From NCBI GenBank assembly GCA_903813345.2, contig CAIIXF020000009.1:32925259-32989258 (forward strand): a DNA stretch of 64,000 nt. The letters are read 5' to 3'. Origin of the DNA: Owenia fusiformis. Lineage: Eukaryota > Annelida > Polychaeta > Sabellida > Oweniidae. Within the stretch, counting starts at the first letter, position 1, and every line of letters starts with the position of its first letter. A model generated the notes under the pieces. That model worked only from the letters and a program-made list of their open reading frames with translations. It was not told the DNA's origin and made no database searches. The translations under genes were made by a program, and so were the position numbers. Shown in pieces: positions 12,262 to 42,000 of this stretch.

Positions 12262-12373
12262 ATGGCGGGTGCGGTACGCAACATTTCTAAAATTTCTCGA
12301 CTTTTGTCATCTAGCCCATCTACACAGCAGTTGGGAGATTTACAAAGATGCTTTTTGCGATGCATGTCAACTG
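12262..12373 (+). CDS. ECHS1: ECHS1 exon 1, mitochondrial transit peptide
   Basis: It starts at ATG 12262 in the context AACATGGCG and ends ACT-G before a strong GTAAGT donor. It supplies 37 codons plus one base, so phase 1 joins the GA that opens exon 2 at 13493 and forms Gly38. The peptide is rich in Ser, Arg, Leu and Gln and low in acidic residues, as matrix-targeting signals are. The 78-codon frame on the opposite strand (12189-12425) is a shadow of this exon. Confidence 0.9.
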
Positions 12374-40900: not shown

Positions 40901-42000
40901 TGCAATGTTTATAGTATTCACATACCAAATATGAACAAAATCGCTCCACTACTTTTCGAGTTACAGCAAAAATCATAAATTAATGAGTAAAGGCCGTCAT
41001 TTTTCAAGATGGCTGCCATGTGCTTCTTTAATATCTACATTTCTAGGGTATACGTGTACAAAACATGAACAAAATCGGGCCAACGGTATTTGAGTTATTG
41101 CCCGGACGGACGGACGGAGGGACGGACGGATGGACGGACGGAGGCGTTCCCTCTATCCCTCCGAACTTCGTTCGATGGGATAATGAAAAAAATGAATGAC
41201 TGAACAAAAGTATATATTTTGATTAAGCTTTCTAAGGTCTGAGATGAATAGGCATGGGCTTTCAACTAGGGGGTAGCGTCTGATTGAAAGCCCATGGAAT
41301 AGGCAAGTCACTTAACCTAGTATTTATGAAGTTGTTTACTATTTCTTTTCTAAAATGTTTCACAATAAAAATTTCTAACCATATTTAGGGTTCATGATTT
41401 TACAAGGCTGATTATTTGAGAAAGGCAGTTCTATACTTTACTTAGCGTTTATGTAAACAAGAAGTATGCATATATATTTATAATGCCTACCACTAGGGGG
41501 TAAGGTCAATTTGAAATTAATTTAATTTAGGGTTTAAGACACATCACAGGCATAAAAATGATGTGTAAAAGGAACTAATATTGACTTCAAAAGATGTTCA
41601 GGTTGATGAAAGTGTTTTTTAAATATCCAAAATCAAAATACTTTCATGTAGAAACAGTATATTTTTATTTGACCTAAGAGTTCCATGAAACAAAAACATG
41701 TAATACCAAAGCATACCAATACTTACACTCAGAAGGTACAAACATTCTTGTTGTTTCACTATTTTACAATGTTTTTCTATAACTTTGTATATCTACATGT
41801 ACTTTTATGTTTTCCCTCCCATATTATATTCGTACATATGGTTAACTTACCGGTGCGAGCTGTGATTGGTTGTTCAAATCTATAGAAGGATCCATTGGAG
41901 TAGTTTTTGTTCCCATCATGTAATAACCTGCTGCTATAGTAACAGCGCTAATAGTGGCGACACCTGCTGTGGTACCAAGGTACTTCAGATAATCTGCCAT
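25966..42000 (-). CDS. Long-chain acyl-CoA synthetase (ACSL1/5/6 class), three alternative copies of one exon
   Basis: ATP-dependent ligase making acyl-CoA from long-chain fatty acids via an acyl-AMP, on outer mitochondrial or ER membranes. Coding exons: 41851-42000, 38180-38294, 37357-37424, 36881-36982, 36366-36465, 35801-35973, 35516-35548, 35072-35194, 34571-34691, 33844-33935, 33458-33540, 33085-33235, one of A/B/C (32606-32767, 30536-30697, 29854-30015), 27778-27894, 27204-27347, 26746-26850, 26458-26529, 25966-26103. GT/AG junctions and phases agree throughout; 682 residues (human ACSL5 about 683). There is an N-terminal hydrophobic anchor at about residues 10-30. The P-loop [11 protein letters not shown] is at 259-269. 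FLPLAHM-type gate (here [11 protein letters not shown]), YGSTE (442-446), [13 protein letters not shown], then [20 protein letters not shown] follow. The end is [12 protein letters not shown]. The ATG exon has an AG acceptor just upstream (TTTCAG before 42009), so a 5' UTR exon lies further right. Confidence 0.95.
26208..26283. mobile_element. 76-bp MITE in the last ACSL intron
   Basis: Left end CAGGGTGGCCTAAAAGTAGGTT, right end AACCTACTTTTGGGACAGCC. TA-rich flanks. A miniature derivative of the CAGGGTG-ended TA-target families seen elsewhere in the window. Confidence 0.5.
28820..29765. repeat. 57-bp minisatellite, about 16 copies, ACSL intron 13C-14
   Basis: The unit is about 57 bp and contains TTACATGTTATTATCATACA and CACTAACATGTAATAATTA. 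Because 57 is 19 codons, long open frames run through it on both strands (up to 176 codons). These translate to a 19-residue loop and are not genes. Each unit is bounded by ACATGT palindromes with inverted TTACATGTTA and TAACATGTAA words, so it can form hairpins. Confidence 0.85.
29854..30015 (-). CDS. ACSL alternative exon 13C
   Basis: 162 nt, phase 0/0, acceptor ACATTAG and donor GTTTGT. It starts [17 protein letters not shown] and ends [13 protein letters not shown]. Motif intact as YGSTE. It has DHVGPPL where A and B have GHVGPPL. Closest to the downstream exon 14 (27778-27894), but a 57-bp minisatellite lies between. Confidence 0.9.
30536..30697 (-). CDS. ACSL alternative exon 13B
   Basis: 162 nt, phase 0/0, acceptor ATATTAG and donor GTTGG. 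It starts [17 protein letters not shown] and ends [13 protein letters not shown]. Motif intact as [14 protein letters not shown] retained. Codons 10-25 differ from A and C. The sequence across its acceptor is reiterated in an array just upstream in transcript order (30698-31910). Confidence 0.9.
30698..31910. repeat. Degenerate tandem array built from the exon 13B acceptor region
   Basis: On the minus strand the exon 13B junction reads ATATTAG then GTAATAGAA. About a dozen copies of this word (plus-strand ACCTAAYATGG and variants) follow between 30726 and 31865, at spacings of about 30 to 90 bp, interrupted by the GC-rich element at about 30777-31383. Between the words is ATGATRNAATGTTC. Each copy therefore looks like a weak 3' splice site. 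Confidence 0.7.
30777..31383. mobile_element. GC-rich, CpG-dense 600-bp inverted-repeat element
   Basis: Inverted ends AATGGCCTAGTCACATAG on both sides; the interior is built of GGCCGATG, GAGCTCGGTG and CCGGCC words and is very CpG-rich, in sharp contrast with the AT-rich surroundings. A near-perfect hairpin (GGTGAAATTTAACTCCG with mirror) sits at about 31266-31298. No transposase. TAAT flanks make the target duplication ambiguous. It interrupts the acceptor-derived repeat array. Confidence 0.7.
32108..32335. repeat. 31-bp minisatellite, about 7 copies, ACSL intron 13A-13B
   Basis: Unit AATATGGGGAGAACCAAGTG followed by AATATGATTTC. Homogeneous central copies with diverged edges. Non-coding. 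Confidence 0.85.
32606..32767 (-). CDS. ACSL alternative exon 13A
   Basis: 162 nt (54 codons), phase 0 at both ends, CCTAG acceptor and GTTTGG donor. It starts [17 protein letters not shown] and ends [13 protein letters not shown]. It contains the Y/F-G-x-T-E motif of adenylate-forming enzymes, which contacts the adenylate, and the conserved GHVGPPL. It is the copy nearest the upstream exon 12 (33085-33235). Aligning the three copies, the ends are conserved and codons about 10-25 are highly variable. Confidence 0.9.
38800..41180. repeat. Tandem repeat of GGCGGCCATTTTTCAAAATGG type with (GGAC)n end
   Basis: Repeated blocks with ATTCACATACCAAATATGAAC, AAATCGCTCCACTACTTTTCG and AAAATGGCGGCCATTTTTCA, in units of roughly 130-170 bp, ending at a (GGAC)n run (41101-41145) and CCGAACTTCGTTCGATGGGATAA. 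Interrupted by the insertion at 39186-40160. Lies in the first ACSL intron. Related in its ending to the repeats at 318-1065 and 62066-63115. Confidence 0.75.
39186..40160. mobile_element. 975-bp foldback MITE, CAGGGTGGTCAAAAAAAAC ends
   Basis: Long inverted arms with CAGGGTGGTCAAAAAAAACG at the ends; TA at 39184-39185 and 40161-40162. The surrounding tandem repeat gives the empty site: TGCTTATAGTATTCATATACC occurs uninterrupted nearby and is split here. No complete transposase. Confidence 0.85.

Follow-up and report, generated by a model that had tools for sequence, protein, structure and literature searches.

Two adjacent genes of acyl-CoA metabolism in the annelid Owenia fusiformis, ECHS1 and ACSL, carry tandem copies of individual exons. 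The genes lie in a window of 64 kb, which is the whole stretch of DNA analysed here (C9:32,925,259-32,989,258, in an assembly of 498 Mb whose contig C9 has 38,876,441 bases). Exons 3 and 4 of ECHS1 are each present twice (3a and 3b, 4a and 4b), and exon 13 of ACSL is present in triplicate (13A, 13B and 13C). All seven copies are real, coding and constrained at the protein level. Judging from their sequences, these old tandem duplicates are probably used as alternative, mainly mutually exclusive exons in both genes (probability about 0.77).

Each of the seven copies has an AG acceptor and a GT donor, all copies within a cluster share one phase, and none contains a stop. These properties had been listed in a preliminary description of the window, and its account of two duplicated ECHS1 exon pairs and one ACSL exon in triplicate is likewise borne out by the exon anatomy and by the protein matches between copies. 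The E values of these matches are 1e-8 for 3a/3b, 2e-16 for 4a/4b and 3e-17 to 1e-19 for 13A/B/C, at protein identities of 51-61% (depending on the alignment), 82% and 54-61%, respectively. Neighbouring homologous exons with the same phase and similar length, the mark of a cluster of mutually exclusive exons (MXEs), are thus found in both genes. Complete proteins are obtained from all four ECHS1 combinations (294/297 amino acids) and from all three ACSL forms (682 amino acids).

Substitutions between the copies are concentrated at third codon positions (binomial P 0.003-0.01; 0.017 for an alternative alignment of 3a and 3b), and divergence between copies is 0.12-0.54 at nonsynonymous sites (dN) and 1.1 to saturated at synonymous sites (dS). 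The third-position bias and these values indicate that a protein-coding role was kept long after duplication. A purpose-written scan for coding tandem copies returned 366 pairs of similar reading frames in the whole 64 kb. Ranking by the third-position test placed the five ECHS1 and ACSL pairs in the top six, the remaining one being a repeat at 48.4-48.8 kb.

ECHS1 is encoded on the forward strand at 12262-19920 with 8 exon positions, and the coding span of ACSL extends on the reverse strand from 42000 to 25966 with 18 exon positions. The tail-to-tail layout given in the preliminary description was confirmed; the genes are convergent with 6 kb between them. The 3b+4b product of ECHS1 is an ordinary mitochondrial enoyl-CoA hydratase (E 1e-118 to chain 9rgq_A), and the 3a+4a hydratase matches Pfam ECH_1 at 295.2 bits, almost the 311.9 bits of 3b+4b. 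The ACSL product is a long-chain acyl-CoA synthetase of the ACSL1/5/6 type, with ACSL5 and ACSL1 as named relatives. All three of its forms have the AMP-binding domain (Pfam), and P-loop, gate and EGYGxTE-type motifs are present, the last with S for Q. The form with copy 13A is the public Owenia protein P0238. The features are as follows, with ECHS1 residues numbered by alignment to the mammalian chain:

12262..12373, + strand: ECHS1 exon 1, start codon and targeting peptide region; GT donor, spliced model open
13493..13687, + strand: ECHS1 exon 2, AG/GT borders
14031..14149, + strand: ECHS1 exon 3a, 119 nt; variant, keeps A98 and K101, has P117, 3 residues shorter
14230..14357, + strand: ECHS1 exon 3b, 128 nt; canonical, the copy in public Owenia protein P0001
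14655..14754, + strand: ECHS1 exon 4a, 100 nt; variant, Q at M148, A at G161, I at T169
15562..15661, + strand: ECHS1 exon 4b, 100 nt; canonical, the copy in P0001
16889..16993, + strand: ECHS1 exon 5, from the spliced gene model
18894..19013, + strand: ECHS1 exon 6, from the spliced gene model
19278..19345, + strand: ECHS1 exon 7, from the spliced gene model
19855..19920, + strand: ECHS1 exon 8 with stop codon, from the spliced gene model
25966..42000, - strand: ACSL gene, coding span, 18 exon positions; gene model, P0238 with copy A
34571-34691, - strand: ACSL exon 9, single, Y-type gate motif
32606..32767, - strand: ACSL exon 13C, 162 nt; first in transcript order
30536..30697, - strand: ACSL exon 13B, 162 nt
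29854..30015, - strand: ACSL exon 13A, 162 nt; the copy in public protein P0238

The ECHS1 copies follow one another as 3a-3b-4a-4b, separated by 80, 297 and 807 nt, and the ACSL copies in the transcript order C-B-A, separated by 1908 and 520 nt. Duplication of ECHS1 exons 3 and 4 as a block is disfavoured, as the order is 3a-3b-4a-4b rather than 3-4-3-4. The gene pair is flanked by a frame at 2341-2682 (- strand) that we take to resemble a WIPI/WDR45 exon and by a frame at 61381-61623 (+ strand) that presumably resembles the start of a PIWI-like gene.

Alternative use of the exon copies

In the proposed mechanism, ECHS1 would pick 3a or 3b, and 4a or 4b, giving up to four hydratase isozymes, and ACSL would pick 13A, 13B or 13C, giving up to three synthetase isozymes. 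Inclusion of both copies or of neither copy of one ECHS1 pair would shift the frame and lead to an early stop, and such transcripts would be removed by nonsense-mediated decay. Copy choice would probably alter which acyl chains are preferred, or the kinetics, depending on tissue, stage or condition. We infer from the sequences that each copy is spliced in and that the choice alters the enzyme. The four hydratase and three synthetase isoforms foreseen in the preliminary description are possible in that all combinations are open, but the ACSL copies are not made exclusive by frame.

At 119 and 128 nt for exon 3 and 100 nt for exon 4, no ECHS1 copy has a length divisible by three. Translation runs into early stops when 3a is joined to 3b, when 4a is joined to 4b, and when either exon 3 or exon 4 is omitted. 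For human MXEs, PMC5740500 describes two ways of enforcing exclusivity, frame shift followed by decay and proximity of the branch point, and the ECHS1 pairs share the former mode. Exclusivity is enforced by frame only in the ECHS1 pairs, because the ACSL copies are phase 0-0; for ACSL exon 13, exclusivity is assumed and would need another cause.

Several observations weigh against alternative use. The sole Owenia entry among the listed ECHS1 matches (P0001) contains 3b and 4b, and the sole Owenia entry among the listed ACSL matches (P0238) contains 13A, so that 3a, 4a, 13B and 13C are without transcript support. By arithmetic, skipping ECHS1 exons 3 and 4 together (119 + 100 nt) keeps the frame, and the ACSL copies, at 162 nt and phase 0-0, keep it whether several or none are included. 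The donors of the exon 13 copies (GTTTGG, GTTGGT and GTTTGT) look weak; the constitutive ACSL exon 16 likewise has the donor GTTTGT. Finally, a screen of the introns of the ACSL cluster against each other for ungapped complementary stretches (13 nt or longer, 5 or more G/C) revealed no docking/selector RNA pairing. Intron 12 had zero complementary stretches with every other intron of the cluster, and introns C-B and B-A had one 13-nt match each with the intron after 13A. A minisatellite before 13B gave 8 matches with the intron after 13B (longest 17 nt with G-U pairs), compared with 0-3 matches (longest 15) in 10 shuffles. These 8 reflect the repeat units, which in most or all cases match one site.

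The same minisatellite (30720-31960) extends up to 13B and is built of units like the 3' splice site of that exon (catttaccatattag), for which the units could act as decoy acceptors. Between exons 13B and 13C a GC-rich element is inserted at about 30770-31390; its 20-nt inverted ends (CTATGTGACTAGGCCATTAG) suggest a small inverted-repeat transposon. The intron after exon 13A holds a 57-bp tandem array of about 16 or more copies (28651-29802).

The single copies seen in the Owenia proteins among the listed matches are also what makes it conceivable that one copy per exon is used, the others being relics or regulatory decoys, for instance through frame-shifting inclusion that lowers ECHS1 expression. 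The early stops that follow joint inclusion in ECHS1 would provide a possible switch-off. This explanation is nevertheless unlikely. Protein-level constraint is found between all copies despite high-to-saturated synonymous change, and a relic or pure decoy is disfavoured because such an exon would not preserve codon meaning. Catalytic residues are moreover retained in all ECHS1 copies, and the three ACSL forms fit their family equally. An artefact of assembly or annotation, in which paralogues were collapsed or haplotypes misplaced, is extremely improbable. Some contigs of the genome do look allelic (C35/C46), but the copies belong to single genes whose flanking exons occur once, and their protein identity of 51-82% is far from allelic. 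Searches of the Owenia genome turned up no further ECHS1 locus with comparable identity; for ACSL they gave a single clearly separate paralogue, at C9:13.4 Mb, whose exons are about 50-80% identical. Alternative use of old exon duplicates is the best explanation of the two clusters.

Residues exchanged by the copies and their origin

The ECHS1 copies are predicted to alter residues of the pocket and not catalytic ones. Both exon-3 copies keep the oxyanion residue Ala98 as well as Lys101, and both exon-4 copies keep Gly141, Glu144 and Glu164; the oxyanion pair Ala98/Gly141 and the pair Glu144/Glu164 are present in all ECHS1 isoforms. The naming of catalytic and oxyanion residues is partly general background and partly follows PMC8613188. 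Lys101 has been shown to bind the CoA phosphate, and its replacement by Gln nearly abolished the activity of human ECHS1, as reported in PMC5587591. The three ACSL forms score alike for the AMP-binding family (285.2 bits for 13A, 284.2 for 13B and 283.2 for 13C).

In exon 3a, residues 104-126 are rebuilt, three residues shorter, with Pro at 117. In the rat enzyme, a mobile loop at residues 113-118 lines the acyl tail. Pro at 117 occurs in none of the 109 readable relatives among 119 listed (Leu in 91, the rest partly insertion-shifted), a count made with a pattern requiring AGADI, so that gastropod variants were left out. In exon 4a, Gln is found at residue 148, where all 119 listed relatives have Met; Ala is found at 161 (Gly in 112/119) and Ile at 169 (Thr in 117/119). 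Residue 148 is one helix turn from Glu144. According to section 9 of PMC8613188, hydratases have Met at the equivalent position, a bifunctional archaeal enzyme has Ser, and Ala occurs both in a dehydratase and in a second dual-function enzyme.

The copies of ACSL exon 13 carry alternative versions of the EGYG/EGFG-STE segment, which we take to be the adenylate-binding motif. When 13A, 13B and 13C were each searched alone, no solved structure was matched at E 0.01. An 'A-box' is named in a legend of PMC1543647. The paralogous Owenia ACSL (C9:13.42 Mb) has a single exon 13, which is 56% identical to 13A, 54% to 13B and 50% to 13C. Mean identity to 13 relatives was 58.5% for 13B, 52.0% for 13A and 51.0% for 13C, but these relatives were retrieved with a 13B-form query and the comparison leans to B. 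In the exon-13 tree, A and C are set apart with support 97. The proposal that 13B is the ancestral copy was dropped, as the relatives are biased to B, the paralogue is about equally close to A and the family scores are equal.

Indirect support for alternative use of Owenia exon 3 may be drawn, by analogy, from gastropods. NCBI entries labelled 'isoform X2' contain an exon-3 variant of ECHS1 in Haliotis cracherodii (P0007), Physella (P0034), Biomphalaria (P0043) and Pomacea (P0072), and more such variants were found in Gigantopelta and Littorina among the 120 proteins listed (variant entries P0007, P0019, P0033, P0034, P0043 and P0072). In addition, two or three exon copies are fused in the overlong models P0005, P0011 and P0052 (Patella, Biomphalaria and Plakobranchus). 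The gastropod variants resemble 3a in concerning the same exon of the same gene and in having Pro117 in 10/10 variant segments. They differ from it at residue 101, where 9/10 segments have Ala, Glu or Pro whereas 3a keeps Lys; the tenth keeps Lys at 101 but has Asp at 98. The merged gastropod models begin with the canonical copy, which is the second of the two in Owenia.

In an exon-3 protein tree of 44 alignment columns, Owenia 3a joins the gastropod variants with support 69. A topology test keeps this grouping and sistership of 3a and 3b alike, with approximately unbiased (AU) P values of 0.507 vs 0.497, and 0.236 when the gastropod variants are also held together. Common and independent origin of 3a and the gastropod variants are thus both compatible with the sequences. 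A protein search with the 3a segment, in which the 8000 candidates sharing most words were scored, gave no name suggesting a 3a-like isoform among the best 120 of 7290, judged by names alone.

Other acyl-CoA genes and the pairing of ECHS1 with ACSL

The preliminary description had presented the locus as an undescribed system of linked exon diversification in two pathway partners. This claim is unsupported in that form, as MXEs are of a known kind and similar duplicates are found in unlinked acyl-CoA genes of Owenia:

C5:35538374-35538610 and 35538661-35538897, - strand: duplicated exon of a methylglutaconyl-CoA hydratase-like gene, 237 nt each, AG/GT borders
C1:35563120-35563300 and 35563624-35563798, + strand: two terminal coding exons of an LCAD-like acyl-CoA dehydrogenase, each with its own acceptor and stop
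C12:32321220-32321399 and 32324747-32324866, - strand: two copies of an acyl-CoA dehydrogenase terminal exon, each with its own stop, 3.4 kb apart

The duplicated active-site exon on C5, whose best match is human methylglutaconyl-CoA hydratase (1hzd, E 7e-30), covers the same crotonase region as ECHS1 exons 3 and 4. Its copies differ 7/7/40 by codon position (P 1e-9), and dN of 0.10 with dS of 1.5 indicates strong purifying selection. Only 50 nt separate them. Introns have a lower size limit for splicing; this one is probably below it, and the pair would then exclude itself sterically. The C1 exons are 323 nt apart, differ 8/4/24 by codon position (P 4e-5) and appear to be alternative last exons. 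Those on C12 are a possible further case, in one gene or two. The labels LCAD-like and ACAD10/11-like were assigned from motifs.

Functional pairing of ECHS1 with ACSL would mean that a shared regulator switches both exon choices and that linkage is kept by selection. The genes are convergent, 6 kb apart and act on one metabolite class, and with such exons in about 1.1% of human or fly genes, a neighbour that also has them is unusual. In Haliotis asinina (P0003/P0244) and Liolophura sinensis (P0050/P0338) both genes are on contigs of equal size and may share a chromosome. The contigs differ in size, however, in Babylonia, Lottia, Ridgeia, Lingula and five fishes, which says little where assemblies are fragmented, and the duplicates on C5 and C1 argue that linkage is not required. 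Functional pairing is very unlikely, and the two genes are most likely neighbours by chance.

If there is a pattern, it is one of acyl-CoA enzymes rather than of the ECHS1-ACSL pair. Family searches of the Owenia genome found same-range tandem pairs in 2/15 crotonase clusters and 2/14 acyl-CoA dehydrogenase clusters. None was found in 7 thiolase clusters or in 8 aldehyde dehydrogenase clusters, the latter with only 12/214 candidates scored. The 15 crotonase clusters include two allelic-looking contigs and some intronless-looking genes, and the method missed 3a/3b. These controls are too few for a conclusion on enrichment of duplicated exons in acyl-CoA genes. It is quite unlikely, though conceivable, that Owenia and some relatives rely on exon choice instead of gene duplication to adjust the mitochondrial acyl-CoA pathway as a whole, perhaps with a joint switch that follows oxygen supply. 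ECHS1, ACSL, methylglutaconyl-CoA hydratase and acyl-CoA dehydrogenase would then each have alternative active-site or C-terminal exons, and in anoxia the hydratases and dehydrogenases could perhaps run in reverse, as dehydratase and enoyl reductase, like the coq-2 switch for rhodoquinone. In 4a, Gln148 beside Glu144 stands at the position that has Met in hydratases and Ser or Ala in the dehydratase and dual-function relatives listed in PMC8613188.

Known systems and significance

Tandem MXEs are already known as a kind, with metabolic precedents in ACSL1/6, where another exon is concerned, and in coq-2. Their share has been put at 1.07% of genes in human and 1.1% in fly (PMC9741552). Human and fly tandem duplicated exons are of the same general kind as those of Owenia, with similar neighbouring exons of which one is chosen, and frequent independent origin has been described for them (PMC9741552, PMC5740500). 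According to the same sources the human and fly sets are enriched in ion channel, muscle and nerve terms, unlike the acyl-CoA genes of Owenia.

Mammalian ACSL1 and ACSL6 belong to the same family as the Owenia synthetase and likewise have alternative exons side by side within the catalytic domain (Soupene and Kuypers 2006, PMC1543647). These exons are thought to tune substrate handling, and variants without both have been reported in the same paper. The alternative exon in question encodes a 26-residue gate motif, D-x4-(F,Y)-LPLAH-x2-E. The Owenia gate motif lies in the single exon 9 (Y type), and it is exon 13 that is triplicated. The coq-2 MXEs, which serve the ubiquinone/rhodoquinone switch in helminths, annelids and molluscs, resemble the Owenia case in that the active-site core of a mitochondrial enzyme is exchanged by splicing; one or several origins are left open in PMC7434440. 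They belong to another enzyme and pathway, and their function was proven by exon deletion (PMC7434440), whereas the Owenia copies are known from sequence alone.

The names 'ECHS1' and 'ACSL' are absent from the main text of PMC5740500, and 'ACSL' and 'enoyl' from that of PMC9741552. Literature on ECHS1 alternative exons was not found by titles and abstract openings, with subscription journals and supplements outside the scope; on this basis the duplicated exons of the two genes look undescribed. What is new is not confined to these neighbours, since exons of this kind were duplicated repeatedly among acyl-CoA enzymes, in two genes over the same crotonase region.

The merged gastropod models P0005 and P0011 are a warning that protein databases contain models in which alternative exons are fused. 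If the copies are used, one hydratase gene would give rise to four enzymes that differ only around the acyl pocket, and ECHS1 would be a natural exon-swap series for studying what determines chain length and direction in crotonases. Because one worm has the same crotonase region duplicated in both ECHS1 and methylglutaconyl-CoA hydratase, and snails again have variants of ECHS1 exon 3, repeated evolution of isozymes at the level of exons would become testable. Such evolution would lie in core metabolism, in contrast to the channel, muscle and nerve enrichment of the human and fly sets.

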